Shown here: in pieces, positions 12,955-32,797 of the stretch | Position numbering within the stretch: the stretch's first letter is position 1 | How the letters are laid out: every line of letters begins with the position of its first letter | Source of the DNA: a virus | DNA: 59,901 nt | Virus record (IMG/VR): IMGVR_UViG_3300027833_000053 | Location: 1-59,901 of that record | Strand: one strand, 5' to 3' | The notes under the pieces: generated by a model | Told to the model about the DNA's origin: nothing | Databases searched by the model: none | What the model saw: only the letters and a program-made list of their open reading frames with translations | Translations under genes and position numbers: made by a program

Positions 12955-13431
12955 TTATAATTTTATGTCGTAATCTATATAGGTTATAGTAACTTCTTCT
13001 CCAGACTTAATGGCGTTTGCTATTTTCGGATAGATTCTTTTATAGGCGTTAACACTCTTTCCAATAAAACCATCTTTAAGAATGTTATTGTTTTCTTGAC
13101 TATCACCAACGATAAGACAGCCAGCAGTATGTTCATCAGTGTTTCCAGTATGAATAAGAATATACTCAAACCCAGGAACGTCAACGATATGCAACATACC
13201 AATGTGCATACCAGAATATTTTTTAGTGTATCTTCCATGAAATCCTCCTTCAGTTCTTAACTCTATTTTATACGTGCCAGCAGGAACTCTAGTTTCACCT
13301 TTTATCTTTACGTCTCTAGCCTCGTCTTCTAACGTGTAACATAAAAAAGACTTCATGTCTAAGTTTGTCTCAAACAATAATCCAGACGTTGAATCTTCAC
13401 CGCTACTAAATCTTAATACTTTTAAATCCAC
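12955..13431 (-). CDS. DUF5675 family protein, possible lysis or cell-wall function
   Basis: A 158-residue protein with the DUF5675 pattern: CYTLEDEARDVKIKGETRVPAG, a Y-x-I-x-LR strand, then MLHIVDVPGFEYILIHTGN and HTAGCLIVGD. The H-x-GN...GC arrangement recalls the catalytic H...GC of L,D-transpeptidases, so peptidoglycan activity is a reasonable guess, but the biochemical role of this family is not established. The start is a GTG at 13429-13431 just after the previous stop. It follows the holin-like gene in the same late unit, as an endolysin would. Confidence 0.7.
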   Translation of the reverse strand: MDLKVLRFSSGEDSTSGLLFETNLDMKSFLCYTLEDEARDVKIKGETRVPAGTYKIELRTEGGFHGRYTKKYSGMHIGMLHIVDVPGFEYILIHTGNTDEHTAGCLIVGDSQENNNILKDGFIGKSVNAYKRIYPKIANAIKSGEEVTITYIDYDIKL

Positions 13432-13432
13432 T

Positions 13433-13564
13433 TTACTTTTTCTTTTTTACAATAGTTTTTACCTTGCCATTTGTTGTTCTAGCGTAAATCTTGTCTTTAG
13501 TTTCTCTTATAAATGTTCCAGAGTATTTCTTACCTCCAAACATCCAGTTAACTTTTTTAGCCAT
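13433..13564 (-). CDS. 43-residue Lys-rich microprotein
   Basis: A short frame (MAKKVNWMFGGKKYSGTFIR...IVKKKK) whose ATG overlaps the stop of the holin-like gene as TAATG. It is basic, with a beta-like centre and a poly-Lys tail. It lies 1 base before the GTG of the DUF5675 gene. It is one of several Lys-rich microproteins in this unit. Function unknown. Confidence 0.55.
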   Translation of the reverse strand: MAKKVNWMFGGKKYSGTFIRETKDKIYARTTNGKVKTIVKKKK

Positions 13565-13974
13565 TATTTTTCTTGTTTATTTGAACTTCCTCCAAAGAAA
13601 AAGTCTATAATAGTATTAACTTTTGCAGACATAGCTCCAAATATGGTAGATATAAAACTAATCTCAAACTCTCCTAAATCAATGATACCATTAACAAAGT
13701 GTTGAAACATAACAAAACTAATACCAAAATAAGCTACTGTAAATAAAGTAGCAAGTATCTTTTGAATTATAGCATCGTCTTTATACAAGTCTCTTGCATC
13801 CTTTCTGTCTTCCACCTCTTTATTAAAAGCTTCTTTCTCTGCGTCTAACAAAACTTTACGTAACTGTAGTTTAGCCTCGTCTCTTTCTTTGTCAGTAGTA
13901 ATGACCTTATCAAGAATACCCTCAGCGTTGTCTACTACTTTACCAAGTATTCCCCCTAATATATTATTTAGCAT
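13564..13974 (-). CDS. Holin-like membrane protein (3-TM holin family type)
   Basis: A 136-residue protein. Residues 1-65 form an amphipathic, highly charged region (TDKERDEAKLQLRKVLLDAEKEAFNKEVEDRKDARD), followed by two clear hydrophobic segments at about 71-92 and 103-125 and a short polar tail. This layout matches the Holin_3TMs family found in tailed phages and gene transfer agents. It would permeabilise the inner membrane at the end of infection. The neighbours (DUF5675 protein, small membrane coiled-coil protein) fit a lysis cassette. Confidence 0.72.
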   Translation of the reverse strand: MLNNILGGILGKVVDNAEGILDKVITTDKERDEAKLQLRKVLLDAEKEAFNKEVEDRKDARDLYKDDAIIQKILATLFTVAYFGISFVMFQHFVNGIIDLGEFEISFISTIFGAMSAKVNTIIDFFFGGSSNKQEK

Positions 13975-14457: not shown

Positions 14458-14763
14458 TTAACATTTCCATCTCCTACGAGCGGCTCTAATTCTTGAATCA
14501 GGATTATTCCTAGTTTTAGCACTACTCTTCTTTAGTTGTCCTAAACTTCTAGCACAATAAGACTTTCTTCTTTTTGCAGACTTACTCCCAGCTTTAACCT
14601 TCCCCGTTACAGCAGTCTTCAATTTACTACCAGGGTTTGCTTTTCTATATGCTTTAACTCCTTTACGAGTCATACCAGCTCCAGACTTTGTAGACCTATA
14701 ATTAGCTCCTTTGCCTTTTGTGGTTTTTCTAATTGTTTTAGACTTTTTTCTTTTTTCAGCCAT
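14458..14763 (-). CDS. DUF6321-like basic protein
   Basis: A 101-residue very basic protein. The central pattern GAGMTRKGVKAYRKANPGSKLKTAV followed by GSKSAKRRKSYCARS and a C-terminal RAARRRWKC is, from memory, a conserved phage family (DUF6321-like) found near lysis or structural genes. The composition fits binding to DNA or to packaged nucleic acid. Its ATG overlaps the stop of the T9SS protein gene. Confidence 0.68.
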   Translation of the reverse strand: MAEKRKKSKTIRKTTKGKGANYRSTKSGAGMTRKGVKAYRKANPGSKLKTAVTGKVKAGSKSAKRRKSYCARSLGQLKKSSAKTRNNPDSRIRAARRRWKC

Positions 14764-16592
14764 TATAATTTAACTATTGTTTTGTTGAAAATTAATTCAT
14801 CAAATCTTATTAATAGGTGATACATACCTTTTGGCAAGTCTAAAACATTAATATTTTTATGTCTGTTTACTAAAATTCCTTTTATATCGTATACATCAAC
14901 GTCTACAAAGTTATTAAAATTAATAGTATTCATGGTTGGATTTGGATAAGGATTTATTCCAAGTCTGTTGTAAGTTTCAACGCTTACTGGCCCTGTCCAC
15001 CCGTCTACGCAGTATTCGTAAAGTCCATCACAACCATCGTCCCAGGTTGAATTGCAACAATATGGGTCTACTTGGATAACCCAGCTAAAACATTCATTAG
15101 GAATATAGTATACATCACCAACACTACAGCCAGCAGAGTAATAGCAACTACTGTCTGATATGTTAGCTTCGACATTATAATTAATAGCAGTCGCATCTGT
15201 GCAGCCAGACAAAGGATAAATACAAGACCCATTATCAGAGTTTGCGTTATCGTTATAATTAATTGCTGTGCTGTCTGTACATCCATAATAATATTCTATA
15301 CAACTTCCGTTGTCTGTATTACAAGTATCGCAATAGTTAAATGCCGCAGGGTCTATGCAGCCATACAACAAAGGTATGCAGCTTTCGTCATCTACATTAG
15401 CGTTTGGGTTATAATTAAATGCTAATTGATTCATACATCCTAAAACTACATCAACACAAGAACCATCTAATTCAGTGTTTGCTTCAGGGTTATAATTCAA
15501 GGCTGCTTCATCCATGCAACCTAGAACTACGAGCGTTTCACAGGTCTCGTTATCAAAGTCAGCGTCTTCGTTATATTCTAGGTATATTGGATTAGTACAC
15601 CCAGCAACGTAGTAGCAACTTCCGTCATCTGTATTAACACCTTCGTTATAATTTAAGGCTGTACTATCAACACAGCCAAATAGTTTTTCTATGCAACTAC
15701 TACCACAATAAGGCATACCAAGCTTAGGTTGAAAGGGTATAAGTGGATTAGCGAATCCTCCTGGTTCATTTATTGTTAAATGTTCTTCTGAATATAAACT
15801 ATATCCACATTGTACGGAAGTAAATTGAGATTGATTCGTTGTAAAGAACTTAGCTTCTACTGGCTCTAGTGTGCTTAAAACAAAGGTAAACGTAGTATCA
15901 AAACTATCTTCTAGTGTAAACTCTCCTATAAAATTAGCACCCTGAATTATTTGTAAATAAGCTCCAGCCCAACCGTTACCAGCTAAATCTGTTAATTCTA
16001 AAGTGTGAGTACAACTATCAGTTAATATATCTGTGTTTGCTTCTTCATTATAATTGTATGCCTCTTCATCTGTGCAGCCAAATACTTTAGGTGTAACACA
16101 CATTCCTGTGTCAACTGTTGCTATTGGTAAAAACTCTACAAAGTTATTATCCATGCAACCATATATAGGCGGTGGTGGAGCGCAATCTTCTACTGTAAAC
16201 CCGTGGTATGCGTACGTACCAAAGTTAGCTGAATCCATTTCAACTATAGTATCATTACATCTTAGTAAATAATATGAACCATCTTGCCCTCCCCATAGAC
16301 TTCCCTGCATCCCATCTCCATAGGTGTCGTATATGTCAAAGTAGTAATCACCATTAGGAATGCAAAGTTGTGTTACCTGAGGTGAATAATTTATTATATC
16401 AGTATAAGGCCCTCCTGTAGCTATGGTGTCTTCATAGGCGTTAGTAATAGCCCAAGATGTTTCTTGTGGGTATTGGTCAGGATTAATAACTACATTTAAG
16501 TAAGTTCCGTTGGGACATTGTGCAAACGCTGTAGATAGCGTAAAAACAAGTAGCATTATAAATGCGTATAGAAATTTTGTAAATGAGTTCAT
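14763..16592 (-). CDS. T9SS-exported cysteine-repeat surface protein
   Basis: A 609-residue protein. Residues 1-24 are a signal peptide ending TAFA before Gln-Cys. Residues 25-140 resemble Bacteroidota extracellular beta-sandwich modules (ETSWAITNAYEDTIATGGPY; DIYDTYGDGMQGS). From about 145 to 481 there are nine repeats of the type GC-x-D-x(2)-A-x-NYN-x(2)-A-N-x-D-x-GSC, interrupted after the second by another beta domain. A Cys-rich part (DPYCC...WDDGC) follows. Residues 546-609 form a T9SS type A sorting domain: NPYPNPT, DVYDIKG, LPKGMYHLL and a terminal KTIVKL. It should cross the inner membrane by Sec and the outer membrane by the host T9SS, and end on the cell surface. It is expressed with late genes, between an exported thioredoxin-fold protein and basic microproteins. 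Role unknown; surface masking or adhesion is inference. Confidence 0.88.
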   Translation of the reverse strand: MNSFTKFLYAFIMLLVFTLSTAFAQCPNGTYLNVVINPDQYPQETSWAITNAYEDTIATGGPYTDIINYSPQVTQLCIPNGDYYFDIYDTYGDGMQGSLWGGQDGSYYLLRCNDTIVEMDSANFGTYAYHGFTVEDCAPPPPIYGCMDNNFVEFLPIATVDTGMCVTPKVFGCTDEEAYNYNEEANTDILTDSCTHTLELTDLAGNGWAGAYLQIIQGANFIGEFTLEDSFDTTFTFVLSTLEPVEAKFFTTNQSQFTSVQCGYSLYSEEHLTINEPGGFANPLIPFQPKLGMPYCGSSCIEKLFGCVDSTALNYNEGVNTDDGSCYYVAGCTNPIYLEYNEDADFDNETCETLVVLGCMDEAALNYNPEANTELDGSCVDVVLGCMNQLAFNYNPNANVDDESCIPLLYGCIDPAAFNYCDTCNTDNGSCIEYYYGCTDSTAINYNDNANSDNGSCIYPLSGCTDATAINYNVEANISDSSCYYSAGCSVGDVYYIPNECFSWVIQVDPYCCNSTWDDGCDGLYEYCVDGWTGPVSVETYNRLGINPYPNPTMNTINFNNFVDVDVYDIKGILVNRHKNINVLDLPKGMYHLLIRFDELIFNKTIVKL

Positions 16593-16942
16593 TAGAATTT
16601 GCTTATTATTAATTCGTCAATGTATTCTTGTACTTCTTTTCTTGTAGCAACCATTTTAAAACTTATGTCTGCTTGAAAACGTTTTACTTCTTCACCATCA
16701 TCAAACACTACTATTGTAGGAACAACAGCTATTTCGTATTTAGTTTGATTATCATTTTGCTCTATCAAAAGTGTTTGTCTATCACATTCCTTTAATTTTG
16801 AGAACCAAGCTACATTGTTTACTGAGTTGAAGCCAGCATTAAAATGTATTATTTCTATTTGAGAAAAAGCTTTACTACAGCTTAGTAATAGTAATAAAAC
16901 TAACAAGTATATAGTAAAAAGATTTCTTTGAGCTTTAAACAT
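16592..16942 (-). CDS. Exported thioredoxin-fold protein lacking the CxxC site
   Basis: A 116-residue protein with a strong signal peptide (YLLVLLLLLSCSKAFSQ). Cleavage by signal peptidase I after AFS would leave Gln first; LLSC could instead act as a lipobox. The mature part reads like thioredoxin: a strand IEIIHFNAGF, a helix with AWFSKL, then VVPTIVVFDDGEEVKRF with the cis-Pro VPT and the DG turn, and a C-terminal helix. The position of the redox CxxC is occupied by FNSVNN, so it is not expected to be an oxidoreductase. It may be a chaperone or binding protein in the periplasm. Junctions on both sides are TAATG-like overlaps. Confidence 0.7.
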   Translation of the reverse strand: MFKAQRNLFTIYLLVLLLLLSCSKAFSQIEIIHFNAGFNSVNNVAWFSKLKECDRQTLLIEQNDNQTKYEIAVVPTIVVFDDGEEVKRFQADISFKMVATRKEVQEYIDELIISKF

Positions 16943-17223
16943 TATCTTCCGTCTAGTTTATCTTCTATTCTTTGTATAGCTTCTTTAAGCTCTTTCACAT
17001 CTTCTTGTGTGGTCATAATTGTTTGACGAACAAGTTGGTCTTTCATGTCAAATTCCATGCGAGTAATTTCTGCTGGTGTAGGAGTTGGTAACTCTTTAGC
17101 TTCAGCTATGTCTGCTTGTAGTGTAAACCACATTCCAATAAGGGTTGCCATTGCAAAACCTATTCCCAATAAAGTTTTTATACTTACGTTGAACCCTGTT
17201 TCTTCGTTAAGTTCTTTTGCCAT
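16942..17223 (-). CDS. Single-span membrane protein with coiled-coil tail, possible lysis accessory
   Basis: A 93-residue protein with a cytosolic start, one hydrophobic segment at residues 17-35 (LLGIGFAMATLIGMWFTLQA), a Pro-rich hinge (ELPTPTPAE) and a long charged coiled coil (EDVKELKEAIQRIEDKL). This is the layout of inner-membrane spanin subunits and some antiholins. Together with the holin-like gene downstream it may take part in lysis. The exported protein next to it lacks o-spanin features, so spanin identity is only a possibility. Confidence 0.6.
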   Translation of the reverse strand: MAKELNEETGFNVSIKTLLGIGFAMATLIGMWFTLQADIAEAKELPTPTPAEITRMEFDMKDQLVRQTIMTTQEDVKELKEAIQRIEDKLDGR

Positions 17224-17224
17224 T

Positions 17225-18262
17225 TTAAAATATTCTATAATTTATACCAAATTTAAAGTCGTACCACTCTCTGTTCCAATACTTGTTGTACTTGCCTTCT
17301 ATAAAACAACCAACGTTTCTGTTTAAGTTGTATCCAAAGATTAATCCTCCTGAGTAATCATACCATTGCTCTCCATCGTTAAAGTTGTGATATGAATATT
17401 GACCTCCACCATCATAGTGGTAAGGCATTAGGTTACCCCAAGAGTGTAACCAAAAATTCTTTTTGTAATGATAAAAGTCAAACCCTACCACCAAAGAGTA
17501 TTGCCATTGATTATCTAACTCATTCTTTTTCTTTTCTACGTAATCATTTAGCATTTCAGGTATAACTACTTGATTCCATATAGTTGCGTTCTCCGCCACT
17601 AAATTACCATTTGGGTCTCTATATTCAGATTCGTATACATCTACGCTGTAACCCTCTTCAATCGCCAGACAAGTATAGTGCAACTGTCCTGAAGCTATTA
17701 ACCATTCTTCTAATGGGTCATATCCATAAGGTTCTGCTAGTCTTTGTACAGCTCCTACGTTAAATGATAATTTCTTTTTACCGTTTAATCTTAATCTCTG
17801 TGTAGACTCAAAATATTCTATGTCAGCAAAACCTTCTTTTATATATGCAACCTTAGTCATCCATACTGGCTTTACATATCTAATAAAATGTTGTTGGTCT
17901 AAATACTCTATTCCTTCTTGTCTTCTATAATCTACTTCAAATAGATATTCAAAAGGAGATAGTCCAATAGTAGCAGCATCTCCATAAGCAGCTTCTGTAC
18001 CATCTTTAAATGTTCTTCTGTCTTCGTAGCCAAATCTTTTTATTTTACGAATACCCATAGTTAAAGAGTAATCGAAAGGTGTTATTATTGTGTCTGTAGA
18101 AAGAAAGCTATTGTTTACCGAGTAAATGTTTTCGTTAGCTAAAGAAGTTCCACCGTTAGCTGCTATGTAAAAAGTAGAAAATTTAAAAGGTTTTTTAAGT
18201 TGTGCGTCTGCTATATTTGCAAAAAACGCTAAAAATAAAAATATAAAAATTCTTAATTTCAT
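17225..18262 (-). CDS. Outer-membrane beta-barrel-like protein with signal peptide
   Basis: A 345-residue protein. Residues 1-20 are a signal peptide (FIFLFLAFFANIADA before Gln). The mature part is rich in Tyr, Trp, Phe and Gly with alternating hydrophobic patterns (FSTFYIAANGGTS, WQYSLVVGFDFYHY, YDYSGGLIFGYNL, CFIEGKYNKYWN) and ends in FKFGINYRIF, an outer-membrane protein terminal strand with C-terminal Phe. It should insert into the host outer membrane by the BAM machinery. Phage-encoded barrels could alter receptors, block superinfection or help lysis. It shares a TAATG junction with the upstream small gene and is in the unit started by the box at 18536. Confidence 0.75.
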   Translation of the reverse strand: MKLRIFIFLFLAFFANIADAQLKKPFKFSTFYIAANGGTSLANENIYSVNNSFLSTDTIITPFDYSLTMGIRKIKRFGYEDRRTFKDGTEAAYGDAATIGLSPFEYLFEVDYRRQEGIEYLDQQHFIRYVKPVWMTKVAYIKEGFADIEYFESTQRLRLNGKKKLSFNVGAVQRLAEPYGYDPLEEWLIASGQLHYTCLAIEEGYSVDVYESEYRDPNGNLVAENATIWNQVVIPEMLNDYVEKKKNELDNQWQYSLVVGFDFYHYKKNFWLHSWGNLMPYHYDGGGQYSYHNFNDGEQWYDYSGGLIFGYNLNRNVGCFIEGKYNKYWNREWYDFKFGINYRIF

Positions 18263-21160: not shown

Positions 21161-24100
21161 TTAGTCTACCATAGATTTAATATTCCAGTATGCAGAAGGA
21201 GCTAATCTATATTTATATTTATCAGTGTCGTATAGAAGCTGCGTGTCTCTACTTAACTTGTCTTTCCAATCGTCATCATCATCCCATCCAGCCATTAACG
21301 CAATAGCAAGACTTAAAAAGACTCCGTTTCTAAACTTTCTTACACCTTCTCTAACGTGCTTAGGCTGATTCTTTAGTTCTTCGTAAGTTATCTTGCCTGT
21401 CATGTAATCAGTAACTACATTCTTAACGGCTCTTACAGAACCTACTTGATACTGTCCAAGTCTATTAATTCTTTCTTTACCAAATCTTTCAGCAACTAAA
21501 GTAGGTAAGTATTTTTTAAATTGGAATAAAAGTCTGCTTGTTGCGTGCATACCAGTAAGTCTTTGGTTTGTGGTGTTGTAACCTTTACCTTGTTCTTTCT
21601 TAACCTTTTCCATTATATCAATAACTCTTTTTTCAGATATTGGACTATTAACAATTAATCCGTTTTCATCTACATTAATGTTATTGTACTCTTCGTCAGT
21701 TAGAAAACTTAAAAAAGTAGCTCCTTGTATATATTTCTCAGACTGCTCCATTGGTAACATTATTAAGTCTGCTATTTGGTCAAATGGAGTCTTTTCCTGC
21801 ATTGAATAAAAGTTTTCATACATAGACATATCAAACGACACATAGTTTCTTATAAGAGCTGCGTTCTTTTTAAAGTTTTTAGGATTTAAAAATCTTGACT
21901 CACCTTTTATAAACTGCTTCATACCACTAGCTCTCATAGCTTGATACTTTCCAATAGCTATATTTCCTAAAGGTATTCCTATATTCCAAGGGCCTAAGAC
22001 TTTAAGTGTAGTAAATAATACAAAAGCATCAGCAGCTTTACCTAATTTAGATGTTTTCTTTTTAGGGCCTTGTTTAGCTAAATACTCTTTGTATATAGTC
22101 TGAACCCACTCTTTAAGATTTGGGTTGTCTTCGTTGTATTCTAAGACACCGTCAATCATAAATCCTAAGTTTTTAAATCCCATAAAGTCATTAGAGCCAT
22201 AATTAAACATCTGTGTTCTTAATGTCTTCAATGCAATAGACTCTAAGTCATAAGACGCAAACTCTTTCATGTTTACAGACTCCTGAGCTATGTAACCACT
22301 TGTTTCATTTGTTTCTAGCAGTAAGTTGATTGCTACTCTGTCGTATTCAATAGCAGTACCATCCTCATCTACGCCAGACTTTAAAAGTTCTTCTGCTCTT
22401 TTCTTTATTTCAGAAAAATCTTTTAGGTTTTTAAACTTAGACTTAGACACGCTTTTATTTGCATATAATTCTTTCCACTCTAAAAATGTTCTTTGTACTT
22501 GTTGTCCAGAAATAGGGTCAGTAGAATACACAGGAACACTGTTTAAATGGTTCTCCATGCCTTCGCTAGTTAAATACATACCATAAAGCCCTTGTCTCAT
22601 AAACGCTTCGTTAGAGTTAATTGTGTGATAAGGTATAGAACCAGTGTATTCTTCATTACCACTAACTGTTTGCATTACCCTACTAAACTCTGTGTGAAAA
22701 GCTTTTTCGTTTTTGCTAAGAGTAGTAGTGTCTTTTTTCAAAACTATGTATTCAGAACCATCTTTATCGGTTCTCATTTCGTAAACGTTTTTGTAAATCT
22801 CTTTATTTAAGTCTCCTTTAAACCAAAGCTTTACATATTCTACAGCTCCTACTTTTTTATAAAAGTCTGCCTTCAAGCTTTTAGCAATTACCTTAATTGG
22901 TCTAGCTTGTTTAGAGTATTCTTGTGTAAACTTAAAGTACTGCTCTTCAACAGTTCTGGTCATAGCCTGAACGTCTGGGTTGTTTGTGTCTACATCATTA
23001 GACATTAGCCACTTTTTAAAGAAAGATACATCGCCTTCGTTAGCTCCTGCATATCCTTCAGGATTTAAAGCCATCTGTTCGTCTCTTGCTTTTTGTGCAA
23101 TAAGAATAGATATTTCTTTTGTTATAGCGTTCTTTCCTACTTTTTCTAAAGAGTCGTCTGTAGAAATAGCTACAGCAGTACCCATAAGCTCTTCTTTAGT
23201 AAACTTAGACATATTAGCAAGAGAAAATTCATTTGCGTTATCAAGCAAAGAGTCTATAAACTTTTTAGAGTTTTTAAGTTTTCTAAATTCTTTTTCTACT
23301 TCTTGAGATATAGTGTCGTTTTTCATTAAAGACTTTTTCAAACCTCTAGCTTCAAAGTATTCTTCTAAAGTCATGTCTTGATTAAAGCTTCTTAATGCAG
23401 AATCATTAATGACTTTTCTTCTCATAATCCTATCACCCTTTTTTTTTAATGTTTCTGCTAAAACTATTGCAGAGTCTTTACCAGGGGGAGGTGTTGGTGT
23501 AGTTTCTACTGTGTCTGCTTTTTTAATCCACTGAGATGGATTGTTATTATCAGCAATAGACTTCAAATCAATATAGTGCAATTCCTTGTTAAACATTATT
23601 GGAGCAATATCAATACCTCCTTCTATAATAGACTTAACTTTTTCAATATCAAAAACTAAATTGTCTCCCTGTCTTGTAAATAACATATCAACAATATTTT
23701 TATTGCTTGATGTTAATTTTTGATACGGTATGTTTGCAAGCTTAAAGACTCCGTTAGATTCAATAAATTTTAAAAAGTCTCGATTGGTTTGTATAGCTTC
23801 TTTTATTTCAGGAGATAAAACATCATTTCCAAAGTATACATTAGGAACAGAATAAATATTGCTTCTAGCGGCACTAAAAACATCTGCTCTACTAAGCGTA
23901 AGTCCTTTATTTATTTTTTCAGCAGTTAAGCTTTCGTTAATTTTATTAACTATAGACGTAGGCATAACAGACAACAATGAGTTATCATTAATAAGCCTAC
24001 CTTTTTTTCCTGTTTTGCTTGGCTGGTTATATTTATAAACAAGTAAAGCTTCTGCAAAACTCATTCCCATTATTTCTATATCCTTAGACTCAATTTCAAA

Positions 24101-27100
24101 TTGACTTCTAATGTTGTTTAGTATTTCAGGAGACGTAGCTCTTGAAACGTATCCAGGTATAACATAAATACTATCTTCTAAAGTCTTCAACATACTAGGA
24201 ATAAGAGAGTCTGTAGACATATTGCCTATAGCAGACTGTATTTTTTTTCTAATGTTTTCTAGTTCGCTTTGACTAATGTCTGTTTTGAGTACGTCTAATA
24301 AAGCTTTGTCGTAAGCAGACTCTATAATTTCGTTAGAAATACTTTTAGACTTGTAGCCTTTATCAAACTTAAACACTTTAGATAAAGACTCAGAAAGCTT
24401 AACAAATTTGTCATTTGATATAGCTGTATTTTCTTTTAACGCTCTTTTAAGATTGTTTAAAGCATTCTCTCTATTTTTTATAATAGGGTCGTTTAAAAGA
24501 GCCTCTGTAAAGTTTATGATAAGAGGGTTTTCTTTAGTATTTTTCCAGTTGTTAATTCTAGTTTCAATCTCTAAGCTGCTTTGTGGATTTGTGTTGTACA
24601 CATTTAATATGTCACTCATCGCAGATAAGTCAGACTTAACAGCTTTTAAAACTTTAATTATTGCGTAAGAGTCAGAATCAGTAGATGGCTTTTTAGCAAT
24701 TCTAACAACTCCTAATTTAAATTTTTCAAGTTTTCTGTATTTAGGATATGTAGTAGTATTAAATTCAGTTTTTAATTCTTCTACTCTTTTTGTATTATTA
24801 ATTTCGTTTACAAAAGCTCTAACATCTTTAATTCCATTATTGCTTATTTCTAGCCAAGCCATAAACTCAGGAGAGTAATAATCTAAGCTAGGGTCTATAC
24901 CTTTTAATATTCTGCTTTGATTAGTGTATTTGTAAACAGCAAGCATTTCTGGACTATTTATATAGCTTAAAGCACTTGTAGCGTCAAATCCCATTCTTGA
25001 CAACAATACTAAGTCTTTTATTACCACAGTGTTTAATCCTAATCCAAAGGCTTTTAATTTAGAAGGATTATCTAAAACAAGCTGTACAAGCTCAGATATA
25101 AACTGAACTTCTTTACCGTTTTTAGAGTCCTTAAATTTATTTAAAACCTTACCTTCTATTTCTATGTTTGCGTTTATTTCTTGATTGTAAAAAGCTAAAT
25201 AGTTAGTATCTCTAAATGCAATAATAAGTTCACCTAATACGTTTCTTATTTCTAAGTTATTCTGTAAAGAGTATTTGTCAAACTGCATTGTAAGCATATC
25301 TTTTTGTTCTTCTGGAACTTTTACTCCAGACTTTTCTAAAGCACTTATGTAGTCGTCAGCTTTGTCTGCAACATTTTCTAAAGAAAGTCCAGTAACATCA
25401 GCCATTTCAGGATTAGAAATAAATCTTGTAGACTTAAAAATATAATTATTATAAGCTTTTTCAGCTTCTGTTAATTCTTTTTTGTTAATTCTACCGTCAA
25501 TAAACAATGAGTCGCCATCTTTATCCGAACCTTTAATTGCAGAGTTGCCTTCTGGTATAGCAACAACCTGTCCAGCATCGCCATCAAAAAAGTCTTTAAT
25601 TACATATACCTGAGACATAGAAAGCTTATCTGCTGGTATACGAGTAGCAGTAACAATATCTCCAACGCCAAACTTTTTTGACATAGATTCTGGTAAAACA
25701 ATTTCAGAAACAATAGAATTACCGTCTAAGTTTCCTTTTATGTAATTAATTTCAGAAGCTCTTACTCTTGATTTTAATTTAAAACCATAAGGAGACGTTT
25801 CAAAAGCTATACCACCTGGGCCTCTAAGCTTAGTTGCTCCTGATATAACGTTTTTAGAAAGAACCTCTTGTAGTTTTAACTGTATTCCAGGTAGATTTAT
25901 TAATCCACTACTAACAAGATAAGACATTGGACTACCAGCCCAGCTTGGGTCAATCATGTCTTTAATGTCTTGAGGCAAATTGTCTATTTGCTCATTGCTA
26001 TAAAGGTCTACAGCTTTAGCATAAGTATCTAATAAGTCTATTACTTCAGACTTCAAAGCATCAGTTGGTACTGACTGTAGGTAATTGCTAAGTAATTGTA
26101 TAGGAGTCGTAGAAGTAGTTTCATTTCTTTGAGACTCTAATATATTTTGTACACCAAACTTAGAAGCATCAAATCCTACGTACCTTAATCCGTCCTCGTT
26201 GCTTTTAGCAAACAAGCCATCTCTTTGCTCGTTAAGTTCAGTTAAAGATGTACGCTCTGAAATACCACCACCAAATTTATCATTTTTAATTAATAGTTTT
26301 ATTTGTGCTTGTGTAGCATTTATGCTGTTGCTACTTAAATTACTAAAAGTAGAAAGTATTTCGTCTTCTGTAATTTTTATTTCTTTTACATCTAAAGGAG
26401 TAAAGAATTTGTTTTTCGTACCAGATTTAACAGCAGACTTTGGCATAGTAACTATTGCAACATTAGTTTCAAACTTAGTAAGTAAGTGTTCTTTTCTGTT
26501 TTTCATAATAGCCCTAAGCTTTGCAAGCCCAACATAACCATTTTCAATAGACATTGCTATATACTTATCACTAAGAACAACAGTGTTGTGTTTTAAATAT
26601 GTGTCTCCAGCATCAATTCCATCTACCCTAGTGTCTCTACCAGAGTGTACTGTTTTATACACAGAACCATATTCGTTACCAAGACCAGCATTTTTATTTA
26701 AAAGTCTTGCGTCTTCAGGAAGCATTAAAGACTGTGCGTCATCTACTAGTTTGTATTCTGCTTTTTCAGCAGCAGTAAAGTCGCCAGAATCTAAGTCCTC
26801 ATCTGTAAGGTATTCAAGTCCATCTTTAGCATTAGGATTGTAATACAAGTCAGGAGTTATAATATATTCTATATGCTCAAACACAGGTCTACGTCTAGCT
26901 ATTGCCATAGCAGAACGCTTAGTATAGTCTACAGAGCTTTTTCTATCGCTATGTTTAGCTACTAAAGTTTTTTGAGCAGAGTATTTGTTTAGTGCTGTAG
27001 ACACAACTAAGTCTTCTAATAATGGCTTAGGAACTTTACCATCAGTAGATTTTATAACTCCGTTTTGAATTAAGTTGGTAATTATATAAGGATTGTCTTT

Positions 27101-30100
27101 AATATAATTTTCTAAAAACTTAACTTGTTTTGCAAGTTCTTCTTTGTTTATTATTTTTTCAAGAACAGTATTGCCATCGCTAAGTTTAAATAGGTTAGAA
27201 ACCTTATTTCCTTCAGAATATCTTGCACCCTCTATTTCTTGAGCTAAATCTATTACAAATTTAGACTCTATGCTTTTTCCAGCAGTTCTTAAATCTTTAT
27301 ACTTAGGAACAGTAACATTGTATCTCCTAGACTTTTCACTAAACACCATTATAGGCATTTGATATGAGTTTTCGTCCACAGTAAGCATTCTTAAAATGTC
27401 ACTCATTAATATCTCATCAGGAGAAAGGTTTACATAACTATCACCTTTTATCATTCCATCAATATCTGTTACTCTTACTCCAGATGAGGCAGAAATTTTA
27501 GGGCTTATTCCTAGTTTGTTTATTAAATAATCAAATACAGAACCATTAGAAACCTCTTTAATTGTTTCGTTTGTAGCTGTGGTTTGGTCATTAAGGTATT
27601 GTTTCATAGAACTAAAACCCTCATACAACGAAGATGTCTTGTTTAAAAGACTTGTGCCAGCTTCAAGTCTAGCCATATCAACCATTGTAATTTGATTAAG
27701 GTCTCTTGAAAGAATTGTTATTTCAGTTGCTATGCTTTTTAATAATTCAGAATCTATCTTACCGTTAGACTTAATAATATCATTTACTACGTCTATAGCT
27801 TTTAGCGTTTTACCTTTGTGCATAAAAGTAAAAGACTCTTGTATTGCAAATTGGTCTAAGTATGCTTGTACAGATTTAGATTTAAACTTAATATCACCTA
27901 TAGCCTCTATTAATTCAAGCATATTAACTCTTTTAGAGTCTTTTAAGAGCCTAAGTATATCTAAGCTTACATTTGTTTCATTGTCTGTAATAAGGTCTTC
28001 AATTACAAATTGTTCAAACTCAGCTATACTAGGCTCTATAAAGTAATCAGAATCTTTTTCTGTGTAAAATAAAACATCTCTTGACTCAACAACATTAGAA
28101 GACTGTTCGTGATGTATTCCTCTTGCTATAGCGTTTAAGTATTGATTAGAGCCAGCAACACTTCCGTACTTATCTTTATATAATTCTAAAGTAAATTGTT
28201 TAAATGCTTTTAATAAAGGCGTTTTAGGATTAATTATAGAGTCCATAAAGTCTGCTATAAATACATTTTCTCCTTTAGGGACTAAAGCCTTTCTAAACTC
28301 TTTTCTAATAGCCCTTCTAATAGCTCCTTCGTTGTAAAGATTTAACTCTCCTTCTAGCTTTCCGCTTTCTAATAAAAACTTACCTCTTTCGCTATTTAAG
28401 TAAAGAACAAAAGCGTCTATAAATTTAGATGTAGAAGACCTTTCGTTCTGTATTGCAACGTTGTCATTAGAATCTTTTGTCATTACAAAGTCGTCTAGCT
28501 CTTCTTCAAACAAGAAAGGTATTCTTTCAGAATTTTTATCTAATATTCCAGCAGACTCTAAAGCTTGTGTAATTTCATTATTACCTAAAGTACCTTCTGC
28601 TATAAGCTCACTTAATACTGAGCCAGATATGTCGTCTATACTTGCTTCATTATACTCATCATTAACTTCATTTATAAGTCCAGAGGTTGCAGAGTCACCT
28701 TTATTTATTCTGTCTAAAAATATAGCGGATTCGTCTTGTAAAATTTCTTTTATTTGTTCTTGCGACAATTCTTTACCAGACAGCCTTTCTATAGCAGACA
28801 TAATCATAGCTTCATATTCTCCTCTATTGTTTATAAGAACAGCTTTAATAAGCTCTGAGTTTTCATAATGTGCTTGAGCTATATCATTTAATGATTTGTT
28901 TGGCTTTTTCCTCATAACCCTAGAATTTCTTTTAGGCTTATGTATTTTACTTCTGCTGTCAGCGTTTCTTCTTATAATATCTAAAGCCTCTTCTAGCGTG
29001 TCTGCTCTATTAGCAGGAGAGTCCATTGCTTTTATAATTTTAAGCTTTTGTTCGTCTGTAGCCTTAGAAGGAACTTTAATTTTTTCTGCAACAATATTAA
29101 CTTTTCTTTTAAGTCTTTGTTCAGTCTTAACGTCTTTAGCTATTATGTCTGCAAGAGTAATGCTGTCTTTTTCTAGGTAATGAGCAAAAGCTTCTTCTAT
29201 AAGTAATTCTTGATTTTCTGGTTTAGCAACAGATATAGAGTCCATGCCCTCTATCTTTTTAAGTAAAGAGTTTATTTCATTAGTAAATATTCTACCTGTA
29301 TTTAAACTTTCTATAATACTCTTAATATCACCTTCTATAGTAGAATTGTGGTCTAACATATTTTTATACACGTTAGGATTTCTTATTATTTCTTCAATAG
29401 TTTGTGGGCCTAATTCTGTGTCAAATAAAATTAACTCAGGATAAGTCTGCGTTATATTTTTAATTATTTTACCATCTTCAAGAATAAGTCTCTTAATGTC
29501 TTGCATTAAAGGAGTGTCTTCAAACAAAGGATAAAGTACGTGTCCAAACTCATGCTTAACTACATTGGCAAAGTCTGGTCTGTTAGAAGCGTATATAGTT
29601 GCGTTTACTACAGCAGAAGTACCTGCTTCACCAAACATTTGAGACATCTCAGCTAAAGTAATAATAGCAGTGTTAGGATAGTTAGCGTCTTTTAAAGCGT
29701 AAACGTAATGTAGTGAGTTTTGTTTTTTAGCTTCGTCAAATTTAGCTATAGCTTCTTTTACTTTTTTAGTTTTTTCTTTTCTAAACTTTCTTCTTTCTAA
29801 TATTCCTAAAGGATTGTACCAGCTATACTTGTATTTGTCTTTAGCTTTTTTAGCATCTTTTTTAGCCTTTCTTACCGACTCTTTTTTACCTATAGGCTTT
29901 GACGGCTCTCCTTGTACTTTTCTAAGTTTGGCTCTTTTAAGTCTATCTAACTTTTTGTTTAACTTTTTAAGAGTCTCTTTGTTAGTTTCTTTTGCTATTC
30001 TATCTTCTAGGTTAGCAATGTCTTTGTCAAACGCTTCATTAGTTGCAGCTTTTTTAGGGTTGTCTTTTTCAGAGTTTTCTGTAACCTCTTCAAACTCTAC

Positions 30101-32797
30101 GTCTTCTATAACATCAGAAGAAACATTGTCTTTAACTTTAGGAGTATCAGACTTTTCTTTAGAAACAACTTCTGTTTCAAGTTCTTTTTTGGTAAAAGCT
30201 TCTTTAACAGATTCAGCTCCTTCTTTGACAGTGTCTACAGCTTTTTCAATAAATTGTGTCCCTTTTTCTTTTGCTTTTTGAAAAGTAGACTTTTTAGTAG
30301 GCTCAGATTCTTCAGCAGCTTTAGCTTTGTTTTCTACAAAAGTTTTGTGCTTTTCGTTAAAAGTTTTTTCTATTGCTTCAACTTTAGCTGCAAACTCTTC
30401 TTGATTTGTTGTTCCGTCTACTCCGTTTTCAGTTAATGATTCAGAAATTAATTTATCTAACTGCTCGTCTGTGAACATATCAGTATCAATATCTTTACTA
30501 CCCTTGTAGAACGCTCTAAATTTTTGAGTCATTATGTTGAACACATTTTCTTTAGGCATATCAAAAACCTGCTCACCTAAAGTAGGCTCTTGTCCTTCTG
30601 GCGCTTGTTCAGCTTGTTGTGCTTGCTCCTCTTGCTTTCTTTTTGTATAGTCTGCTTTCGCTTTATTTACACCGTCAAAAACTCCTTCTGAAAATTCTTT
30701 TACTCCTTTACCAAACTTACCTATTTGACTTGTAGCAGACTTAACAGCATCTTTAATACCCTCTACGCTTGCCGCTTTTCTTACTTTAGATTTAGTAATT
30801 AAACTAGTAGTGTAGGTGTTTATTTCTTCTTGTATTTCGCTATTAGATTTGTTAACATTATTTTGTAATGTATTAAAATCTGCGTCTAGCTCTGCTATAC
30901 GTTCATTAAGATTGCTTGCAGCTTGTTTTTTAGCAGAATCACTTAAATTGCTGCTTTCTATATCTTTAAGTTGATTTGTTAAATCAGCCTTTTGTTCGTT
31001 GTATATTGTAGACTGCTCGTTAAACTCAGCAGTATTTTTAGAAATACCAGTTTGCATTCTAAACAGCCTTGACTTTTCATTAGCGGTAATATTTTTCATA
31101 CCACTACCTACTTTTTCGTAAGTCTTTTTTTGCTCATTCATAAAAGCAACAAGCTCAGTTTGTAGTTTTGCGTCTACAGCACCACCCTCTCTACTTGCTT
31201 CTCCGTTTATCCAGGCTAATAAGTTGTCATCGTTCTGGTCAGCTACAGCCTGAGAAACCATGTCGTACATTGCAGATGTTTTGTCATAAGTGTTATCTGC
31301 ATTGTTAGCTCTATCCATTATAGAGTTTATAGCGTCTATCTTTTTGTCATTTTCAAAACTCCTGTCCGCTACGTCATTAATTAAATTTGTGTATCCACCC
31401 ACGGTAGAACCAGCCATACCAGATATAAGAGATATAGCTTTTGTTTTTCTTGCTTCATCAGATGAATAAAAGTCCCAGTAAGTAGGTGTTTTTTCTTCTT
31501 CACCTCTAGCTTCGTTAAAAGCTTTCTTCTCAATCCACTCTTGATAAGTTTCTTGAAACATCTCTTCAATACCTTCTGGAGCTAACATACCAGCAGCTTT
31601 TACACCTCTAGTTCCTTTAAGAAGTCCAGCTCCAAGTCCAGCTAATGCTCCTGTCTTCATAGCATCATCCATTCCCTCTTCTCCTAGGGTAGCCGCTCCA
31701 GCAATAGCAGCACCAGCAGCAGAACCTGCACTAGCATTGACTAATATATTTGCAGCTCTTTTACCAAATCCATTTTGTATTTGACCTAGCTTTTGTGTTG
31801 CTTTACCTAATATAATTTTAGAACCACCTCCAAATGTAAATCCCCAAGACAAAGCGTCTACCGCCATCCATTTAGAATTGTCTATAAATATATCAGCAGC
31901 TATTTGTCCAGCTAACTTTCTTCCCTCATCATCGCTTCCAAACTCCTCTAAGGCTCTATCATAAGCCATACCAGCAACAATACCACCATCAACTAAGTTC
32001 ATTCCTGCACCACCACCAATACCAGCTACAAGCTTTCCTTTTGTACTTAATCCCACAGCACCTTCTGACCTTGTAAATAGTTTGCCAATACCTTTTCCAC
32101 CTATTTGTCCAATGGTTCTTCCTGCTGGGTCTACAACCTTAGAAGATAATGCTCCAGCTTTTGCTAATCTTGTTCCACCTTTTGCAATAGACTTAGTTGC
32201 CATTTTAGTCATAAGAGTTCCTGCTCCTTTAACTAATCCTGCACCCCCTGCCATCATTGATAATAAGTTGGGGACTTGTCTTGCAAAGTCTGTAGTCCAA
32301 AAGTCTGCTGTCCCCATGTCTGACCATTTAAAGTCTTCTGACCCTGGTTTTTGATATGTTACAGCATAGTCTTGTAATTCTTGAGATGTATTTTCTTTAA
32401 CCCAGTCAAAAAAGTTTTTGCTAAAGTCTAATCCAACAGCTCTTTCTGCTGCACCAAGAGGTGTTGCAAAATTATAAACTAATTGAGTTAAGTCTACAAC
32501 TTGTTCTATAACGTCTCCAGTACCAGCAACTAAACTTTTACCAAGCTTTGTGCCTCCACTCATTAAAATATCTTCCTGAGTATTTCCTACACGCTGTCCT
32601 TGTTCGTCAAAATTAGAACCACCTTTATATTGTTGAAAAGCATCATACCCTCCTTCTCTTTCTTGCGTTGTAGCATCAACTTGTTCTTTCAATAGTTGAT
32701 TCTGCAAGTTAGCAGAAGGTGAGTCTGGTTGTTGCGGAGCTTGTGGTTTTTGATTTCTTGAATTAAAAAAACTACCAGCGTCAGAAAATTTTCCCAT
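21161..32797 (-). CDS. Giant internal virion protein with zincin and crAss-like RNA polymerase signatures
   Basis: A 3878-residue protein, 11.6 kb without interruption. Residues 1-60 are Gln-rich; 60-410 are Gly/Ala-rich hydrophobic (MMAGGAGLVKGAG; AAIAGAATLGEEG), as in ejection proteins that cross membranes. 540-720 are coiled coil and 730-1060 highly charged. HEFGH is at 1082-1086 with a downstream EEAFAHY (E1201-E1202), a gluzincin-type zinc site. Residues of about 2060-2430 resemble crAss-like virion RNA polymerases: DAGDTY-x-K, MPKSAVKSGTK, a RIP motif, VVAIPEGNSAIKG and SDKDGDSLFIDGR, with D2425, D2427 and D2429 in D-x-D-x-D order as the catalytic metal site of double-psi beta-barrel polymerases. 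The last 400 residues resemble C-terminal parts of phage polyvalent proteins (LLFQFKKYLPTLVAERF). It would be packaged, injected and transcribe early genes. Two internal virion proteins precede it. Identity as RNAP is inference from motifs and context. Confidence 0.8.
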   Translation of the reverse strand: MGKFSDAGSFFNSRNQKPQAPQQPDSPSANLQNQLLKEQVDATTQEREGGYDAFQQYKGGSNFDEQGQRVGNTQEDILMSGGTKLGKSLVAGTGDVIEQVVDLTQLVYNFATPLGAAERAVGLDFSKNFFDWVKENTSQELQDYAVTYQKPGSEDFKWSDMGTADFWTTDFARQVPNLLSMMAGGAGLVKGAGTLMTKMATKSIAKGGTRLAKAGALSSKVVDPAGRTIGQIGGKGIGKLFTRSEGAVGLSTKGKLVAGIGGGAGMNLVDGGIVAGMAYDRALEEFGSDDEGRKLAGQIAADIFIDNSKWMAVDALSWGFTFGGGSKIILGKATQKLGQIQNGFGKRAANILVNASAGSAAGAAIAGAATLGEEGMDDAMKTGALAGLGAGLLKGTRGVKAAGMLAPEGIEEMFQETYQEWIEKKAFNEARGEEEKTPTYWDFYSSDEARKTKAISLISGMAGSTVGGYTNLINDVADRSFENDKKIDAINSIMDRANNADNTYDKTSAMYDMVSQAVADQNDDNLLAWINGEASREGGAVDAKLQTELVAFMNEQKKTYEKVGSGMKNITANEKSRLFRMQTGISKNTAEFNEQSTIYNEQKADLTNQLKDIESSNLSDSAKKQAASNLNERIAELDADFNTLQNNVNKSNSEIQEEINTYTTSLITKSKVRKAASVEGIKDAVKSATSQIGKFGKGVKEFSEGVFDGVNKAKADYTKRKQEEQAQQAEQAPEGQEPTLGEQVFDMPKENVFNIMTQKFRAFYKGSKDIDTDMFTDEQLDKLISESLTENGVDGTTNQEEFAAKVEAIEKTFNEKHKTFVENKAKAAEESEPTKKSTFQKAKEKGTQFIEKAVDTVKEGAESVKEAFTKKELETEVVSKEKSDTPKVKDNVSSDVIEDVEFEEVTENSEKDNPKKAATNEAFDKDIANLEDRIAKETNKETLKKLNKKLDRLKRAKLRKVQGEPSKPIGKKESVRKAKKDAKKAKDKYKYSWYNPLGILERRKFRKEKTKKVKEAIAKFDEAKKQNSLHYVYALKDANYPNTAIITLAEMSQMFGEAGTSAVVNATIYASNRPDFANVVKHEFGHVLYPLFEDTPLMQDIKRLILEDGKIIKNITQTYPELILFDTELGPQTIEEIIRNPNVYKNMLDHNSTIEGDIKSIIESLNTGRIFTNEINSLLKKIEGMDSISVAKPENQELLIEEAFAHYLEKDSITLADIIAKDVKTEQRLKRKVNIVAEKIKVPSKATDEQKLKIIKAMDSPANRADTLEEALDIIRRNADSRSKIHKPKRNSRVMRKKPNKSLNDIAQAHYENSELIKAVLINNRGEYEAMIMSAIERLSGKELSQEQIKEILQDESAIFLDRINKGDSATSGLINEVNDEYNEASIDDISGSVLSELIAEGTLGNNEITQALESAGILDKNSERIPFLFEEELDDFVMTKDSNDNVAIQNERSSTSKFIDAFVLYLNSERGKFLLESGKLEGELNLYNEGAIRRAIRKEFRKALVPKGENVFIADFMDSIINPKTPLLKAFKQFTLELYKDKYGSVAGSNQYLNAIARGIHHEQSSNVVESRDVLFYTEKDSDYFIEPSIAEFEQFVIEDLITDNETNVSLDILRLLKDSKRVNMLELIEAIGDIKFKSKSVQAYLDQFAIQESFTFMHKGKTLKAIDVVNDIIKSNGKIDSELLKSIATEITILSRDLNQITMVDMARLEAGTSLLNKTSSLYEGFSSMKQYLNDQTTATNETIKEVSNGSVFDYLINKLGISPKISASSGVRVTDIDGMIKGDSYVNLSPDEILMSDILRMLTVDENSYQMPIMVFSEKSRRYNVTVPKYKDLRTAGKSIESKFVIDLAQEIEGARYSEGNKVSNLFKLSDGNTVLEKIINKEELAKQVKFLENYIKDNPYIITNLIQNGVIKSTDGKVPKPLLEDLVVSTALNKYSAQKTLVAKHSDRKSSVDYTKRSAMAIARRRPVFEHIEYIITPDLYYNPNAKDGLEYLTDEDLDSGDFTAAEKAEYKLVDDAQSLMLPEDARLLNKNAGLGNEYGSVYKTVHSGRDTRVDGIDAGDTYLKHNTVVLSDKYIAMSIENGYVGLAKLRAIMKNRKEHLLTKFETNVAIVTMPKSAVKSGTKNKFFTPLDVKEIKITEDEILSTFSNLSSNSINATQAQIKLLIKNDKFGGGISERTSLTELNEQRDGLFAKSNEDGLRYVGFDASKFGVQNILESQRNETTSTTPIQLLSNYLQSVPTDALKSEVIDLLDTYAKAVDLYSNEQIDNLPQDIKDMIDPSWAGSPMSYLVSSGLINLPGIQLKLQEVLSKNVISGATKLRGPGGIAFETSPYGFKLKSRVRASEINYIKGNLDGNSIVSEIVLPESMSKKFGVGDIVTATRIPADKLSMSQVYVIKDFFDGDAGQVVAIPEGNSAIKGSDKDGDSLFIDGRINKKELTEAEKAYNNYIFKSTRFISNPEMADVTGLSLENVADKADDYISALEKSGVKVPEEQKDMLTMQFDKYSLQNNLEIRNVLGELIIAFRDTNYLAFYNQEINANIEIEGKVLNKFKDSKNGKEVQFISELVQLVLDNPSKLKAFGLGLNTVVIKDLVLLSRMGFDATSALSYINSPEMLAVYKYTNQSRILKGIDPSLDYYSPEFMAWLEISNNGIKDVRAFVNEINNTKRVEELKTEFNTTTYPKYRKLEKFKLGVVRIAKKPSTDSDSYAIIKVLKAVKSDLSAMSDILNVYNTNPQSSLEIETRINNWKNTKENPLIINFTEALLNDPIIKNRENALNNLKRALKENTAISNDKFVKLSESLSKVFKFDKGYKSKSISNEIIESAYDKALLDVLKTDISQSELENIRKKIQSAIGNMSTDSLIPSMLKTLEDSIYVIPGYVSRATSPEILNNIRSQFEIESKDIEIMGMSFAEALLVYKYNQPSKTGKKGRLINDNSLLSVMPTSIVNKINESLTAEKINKGLTLSRADVFSAARSNIYSVPNVYFGNDVLSPEIKEAIQTNRDFLKFIESNGVFKLANIPYQKLTSSNKNIVDMLFTRQGDNLVFDIEKVKSIIEGGIDIAPIMFNKELHYIDLKSIADNNNPSQWIKKADTVETTPTPPPGKDSAIVLAETLKKKGDRIMRRKVINDSALRSFNQDMTLEEYFEARGLKKSLMKNDTISQEVEKEFRKLKNSKKFIDSLLDNANEFSLANMSKFTKEELMGTAVAISTDDSLEKVGKNAITKEISILIAQKARDEQMALNPEGYAGANEGDVSFFKKWLMSNDVDTNNPDVQAMTRTVEEQYFKFTQEYSKQARPIKVIAKSLKADFYKKVGAVEYVKLWFKGDLNKEIYKNVYEMRTDKDGSEYIVLKKDTTTLSKNEKAFHTEFSRVMQTVSGNEEYTGSIPYHTINSNEAFMRQGLYGMYLTSEGMENHLNSVPVYSTDPISGQQVQRTFLEWKELYANKSVSKSKFKNLKDFSEIKKRAEELLKSGVDEDGTAIEYDRVAINLLLETNETSGYIAQESVNMKEFASYDLESIALKTLRTQMFNYGSNDFMGFKNLGFMIDGVLEYNEDNPNLKEWVQTIYKEYLAKQGPKKKTSKLGKAADAFVLFTTLKVLGPWNIGIPLGNIAIGKYQAMRASGMKQFIKGESRFLNPKNFKKNAALIRNYVSFDMSMYENFYSMQEKTPFDQIADLIMLPMEQSEKYIQGATFLSFLTDEEYNNINVDENGLIVNSPISEKRVIDIMEKVKKEQGKGYNTTNQRLTGMHATSRLLFQFKKYLPTLVAERFGKERINRLGQYQVGSVRAVKNVVTDYMTGKITYEELKNQPKHVREGVRKFRNGVFLSLAIALMAGWDDDDDWKDKLSRDTQLLYDTDKYKYRLAPSAYWNIKSMVD

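Follow-up and report, generated by a model that had tools for sequence, protein, structure and literature searches.

The window analysed here is the whole 59,901-base virus contig. The gene under study, T9, closes a compact run of four genes with gaps or 1-nt overlaps between them; trx, tm93 and OMP lie upstream. The features discussed are as follows.

17225..18262, minus strand: OMP, signal peptide followed by a predicted outer-membrane beta barrel (AlphaFold model and PDB matches)
16942..17223, minus strand: tm93, single N-terminal membrane helix and coiled-coil-like tail (by eye)
16592..16942, minus strand: trx, secreted thioredoxin fold with NxxN for CxxC (PDB thioredoxins, E 7e-8)
14763..16592, minus strand: T9, cysteine-rich cargo protein of the type IX secretion system (T9SS), 609 aa, 33 Cys (ORF; TIGR04183 and PF18962 above cut-off)
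16521..16592, minus strand: T9 signal peptide, residues 1-24 (by eye)
16182..16517, minus strand: T9 N-terminal beta domain, residues 26-137 (AlphaFold model)
16011..16160, minus strand: T9 repeats 1-2, residues 145-194 (sequence)
15693..16010, minus strand: T9 inserted beta domain, residues 195-300 (sequence and AlphaFold model)
15144..15677, minus strand: T9 repeats 3-9, residues 306-483 (invariant Gly-Cys and Asn columns in 54 relatives)
14997..15131, minus strand: T9 Cys-rich module, residues 488-532 (invariant W504, D509, C512, C513, W517, D518 and C521)
14766..14948, minus strand: T9SS type A sorting domain of T9, residues 549-609 (profile and fold matches)
14458..14763, minus strand: DUF6321, small basic protein encoded directly downstream of T9 (PF19846)
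13564..13974, minus strand: holin-like protein (weak phrog_3427 holin match, E 0.001)
12955..13431, minus strand: DUF5675 protein, possible endolysin (PF18925; endolysin role assigned from position)

The window encodes a terminase, portal and capsid together with a crassvirus muzzle protein, in agreement with the phage origin claimed in the original prediction. The muzzle protein matches crAss_MUZ at 2e-120, and the best GenBank matches of the terminase are crAss-like phages at approximately 29% identity. On the basis of these two proteins, the window can be assigned to a Crassvirales-like phage. A long block of structural genes on one strand ends downstream with T9, and the holin-like and DUF5675 genes come next, making late expression of T9 plausible. 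The frequency of the Bacteroidota promoter pattern was not above chance. The DUF6321 gene is present in 12/49 loci from a scan seeded with OMP and falls outside the conserved core described below. The structural block also contains a 3,878-aa ORF (21161-32797, minus strand) for which a Pfam search returned no match.

The predicted coordinates of T9 are correct: 14763-16592 is a minus-strand ATG ORF without internal stop. Residues 1-24 resemble the claimed signal peptide by eye, ending AFA/Q, and a simple hydrophobicity rule detects a signal-like start in 65 of 67 full-length T9 relatives. Exactly nine GC-x-D..NYN..C repeats are present, as had been counted, beginning at residues 145, 172, 306, 331, 358, 385, 411, 437 and 463. 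However, the array is interrupted, since a separate domain of approximately 105 residues splits repeats 2 and 3. The claimed Cys-rich module was found at residues ~488-532. The ORF is under purifying selection (dN/dS 0.13, calculated against two relatives). A PHROGs search gave no match for the T9 cargo, OMP or trx. Matches to T9 were found in 55 of 148 Flavobacteriales genomes, chiefly in the repeat region, and several of the matching proteins have type A-like C-terminal domains by eye. The repeats are of a kind typical of host proteins.

Residues 549-608 of T9 match TIGR04183, the T9SS type A sorting family, at 27.7 bits (cut-off 23), bearing out the claimed C-terminal T9SS domain; PF18962 matches the same residues at 29.1 bits (cut-off 27). 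The E-value of approximately 1e-6 means that the sorting-domain match is not due to chance. The best structural match of an AlphaFold model of the domain is 8glk_D, the sorting domain of NucA within a T9SS complex (prob 1.00, TM 0.67 to target, E 1.3e-3), and the RgpB CTD is matched likewise. TIGR04183 is also matched by 43 of 54 T9 relatives (E up to 0.01). The genomes of eight candidate-host Flavobacteriales each contain 33-64 T9SS tags, consistent with the T9SS-bearing host that had been proposed. Profile and model together make it highly probable that the host T9SS exports T9. The protein is most likely Sec-exported and disulfide-rich, with a predicted place on or beyond the outer surface, reached via the host T9SS. 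The T9SS cargo signature, the phage genome and the candidate hosts of the original prediction stand. What does not stand is its view that phage use of T9SS seemed undescribed, since the Cryophage genome has genes for three type A cargoes: an endoglucanase, a GH39 protein and a PA14 protein (PMC7468147).

The AlphaFold model of OMP is a barrel (pLDDT 78.4); among PDB entries, outer-membrane barrels match it best. PF00085 is matched by 30/30 trx members at E up to 0.1, with the window copy below the Pfam cut-off, and these similarities point to a thioredoxin fold. The catalytic CxxC is absent from trx; NxxN was called in approximately 205 of 210 unique sequences from three clades, and the sequences without this call are mostly failures of the search expression. 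No conserved lipobox was seen in trx by eye. tm93 has a mean column identity of 72% over 25 relatives, and its profile gave no convincing match in the PDB. Signal peptides and the tm93 membrane helix were assigned by eye or by a simple rule. The four proteins fit the layers of the envelope, with tm93 in the inner membrane, trx in the periplasm, OMP in the outer membrane and T9 at the surface. We infer the locations of tm93 and trx; among these layer assignments, only that of the OMP barrel uses structure comparison.

The same genes keep company in many other uncultured Bacteroidota phages of marine origin. Seeding a scan with the cargo turned up 49 virus loci, and OMP, tm93 and trx adjoin the cargo in nearly all of them while the remaining neighbours vary. 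When OMP was the seed, so that the cargo played no part in the selection, 532 relatives were recovered; three such scans of uncultivated virus contigs gave 532, 107 and 150 barrel relatives, overlap included. The best 80 loci of OMP-seeded scans were examined, so the rates that follow describe the best hits per scan and whole-family rates may differ. In clade 1, which includes the window, cargo was found in 49/49, tm93 in 48/49 and trx in 48/49 loci with enough flank among the best 80 of 532. In clade 2, all four genes were present in 47/47 best-hit loci with enough flank, mostly in the permuted order T9-OMP-tm93-trx; the cargo's type A domain is YPNP-type in 36 and a YPVP variant in the other 11. 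In clade 3, OMP, tm93 and trx occur in 40/40 best-hit loci, and a custom profile of the type A tag had no hit within 6 kb at any of these 40 loci. Since the trio is complete without cargo in clade 3, OMP-tm93-trx forms the core. DUF5675 was considered as a further member and rejected, being present in 33/49 loci in clade 1 but 1/47 in clade 2. One 67-kb contig (IMGVR_UViG_3300030390_001081) carries two different OMP copies (loci L073 and L110; 74% and 66% identity to the OMP of the window), each with tm93, trx and cargo.

Outside uncultivated viruses the module is rare. The search of phage databases for the same combination, suggested with the original prediction, found it in uncultured virus loci but not among GenBank phages: tblastn of the four genes against 50,697 GenBank phages gave no match. 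The module is nearly absent from Flavobacteriales genomes (2/398). Scanning genome contigs with OMP returned six MAG contigs, which are probably binned virus. It is almost certain that the four genes are a real co-inherited module.

The barrel could be dedicated to shuttling or anchoring the cargo, in the manner of PorP/SprF, while the pseudo-thioredoxin would help a 33-Cys protein to fold. Barrel and cargo are tightly linked in two clades, and hosts cluster type B cargo with its barrel. However, host PorV serves type A tags, 42 barrels searched with Pfam gave no match to a PorP/SprF profile, and trx lacks the CxxC. Retention of barrel and trx in clade 3, where cargo is absent, also argues against this explanation, which we regard as improbable.

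The module does not follow the phylogeny of its carriers. The barrel of locus L006 is 95% identical to that of the window, whereas the terminases are 30% identical; for other loci, barrels are 54-90% identical to the window and terminases 27-33% identical or undetectable. This mismatch indicates transfer across phage lineages, of the barrel at least if not of the whole module. Within the cargo, the bodies of L049 and L105 are 94% alike and their sorting domains 42%, indicating that the sorting domain moves as well and that the tag is exchanged yet kept. A tag that is swapped but never lost is expected if export matters. Seven cargo relatives (L040-L044, L050 and L124) carry a C-terminal tag of ~40 residues, KKLLKITDLLGRETK..KNQPLFYIYDDGTVEKKIIIE, in place of the type A domain. 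The same tag was detected in 57 of 148 Flavobacteriales genomes, with up to 49 scored matches per genome. It lies at the extreme C-terminus in all 25 host proteins read (host loci L150-L177), 23 of which have a signal-like start. No model in NCBIfam or Pfam matched this region of the phage proteins, and it is possibly an uncatalogued sorting tag.

Lysis-type genes were found close to the module in every clade. They lie downstream in 27/31 clade 1 loci (3 kb flank limit) and in 57/60 clade 2 loci, 52 of which have an M15-like endolysin; an M15-like gene is near the trio in 38/40 clade 3 loci. In these counts M15 is named by sequence motif, DUF5675 endolysin by position and weak similarity, and holin by a weak PHROG match. 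The nearest lysis gene in clade 2 has a median offset of 13 bp. The type of endolysin differs between loci at the same place, while the trio is constant. Since late-function genes often cluster, proximity to lysis genes may reflect location only. Directly after the M15-like gene of one clade 3 locus (L316:9840-10277) is a short proline-rich lipoprotein-like ORF that resembles an outer-membrane spanin.

These patterns bear on what a surface-displayed protein might do for the phage. The phage barrel and a host-like repeat protein displayed by T9SS could remodel the cell surface by hiding or replacing receptors, excluding superinfection, or altering adhesion or aggregation. Consistent with this, the repeats resemble host surface proteins, both cargo and barrel would face outward, and superinfection exclusion was proposed for the Cryophage cargo by its authors (PMC7468147). 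However, the cargo body is well conserved rather than variable across unrelated phages, the trio persists without cargo in clade 3, and lysis-type genes are close by. Surface remodelling or superinfection exclusion has almost the same probability as the egress role discussed below. The proteins could instead be virion components, with the cargo as an adhesin on the particle, as the genes directly before the module in its same-strand block are of tail and fibre-like type. However, cargo, trx and OMP all have predicted signal peptides, which would export them from the cytoplasm, the site of virion assembly, and host-type tags are always retained; we consider a place in the virion very improbable.

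Membership of T9 in a four-gene set, occurrence of the trio without T9, and proximity to lysis genes move the likeliest role from receptor masking towards egress, though masking is still plausible. Spanins do the outer-membrane job for virion exit in other Gram-negative phages. In our proposed mechanism, the core trio of tm93, pseudo-thioredoxin and OMP would span the layers of the envelope, with T9 as a surface part that is absent in clade 3. The module would act late, beside the endolysin- and holin-like genes, and would destabilise or open the outer membrane to let virions out. Late timing and outer-membrane disruption are what we infer from the gene setting. We rank egress first because of the conserved core, the fit to envelope layers and the company of lysis-type genes. 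With approximately 55 residues after its helix, tm93 appears short for crossing the periplasm alone, and egress has no obvious need of a surface cargo. Our main reading, a co-inherited trans-envelope module acting late in egress with a surface-displayed, T9SS-exported T9, is given a probability of roughly 0.4, and the egress role of the module is likewise held tentatively. More tentative still is the suggestion of a previously undescribed envelope-opening system that replaces spanins, consisting of the tm93 coiled coil, a catalytically dead NxxN trx, a barrel and, in two clades, a T9SS-displayed protein, and that spreads between unrelated phages.

Passage of Bacteroidota phages through the outer membrane is little known, and the presence of this module in hundreds of uncultivated virus contigs makes the question testable. 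If the reading is true, phages exploit a secretion system characteristic of their host phylum. A literature search found no description of the four-gene module; most subscription journals were outside its reach. Phage-encoded T9SS cargo is already known from Cryophage, and it is the gene setting of T9 that looks new.

Each known system shares part of this arrangement. Cryophage proteins also carry type A sorting domains and are thought to use the host T9SS, but they are variable genes of one phage (PMC7468147), whereas T9 is a repeat protein in a conserved module of many phages. Flavobacteriales type A substrates share with T9 a predicted signal peptide, GC-x-D repeats and a C-terminal sorting domain; unlike them, T9 is phage-encoded and has OMP, tm93 and trx as linked neighbours. 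Type B cargo of PorP/SprF barrels (PMC10202324, PMC12618676) resembles T9 in that the gene for a surface T9SS protein is clustered with a barrel gene. In contrast, the module has a type A tag, and its barrel is not recognised as PorP/SprF and also occurs without cargo. Only unimolecular spanins have been reported from Bacteroidetes phages (PMC12596118). Like two-component spanins, the module lies close to endolysin and holin genes and pairs a coiled-coil-like protein of the inner membrane with a partner in the outer membrane, but that partner is a barrel rather than a lipoprotein, and a pseudo-thioredoxin and a cargo are added.
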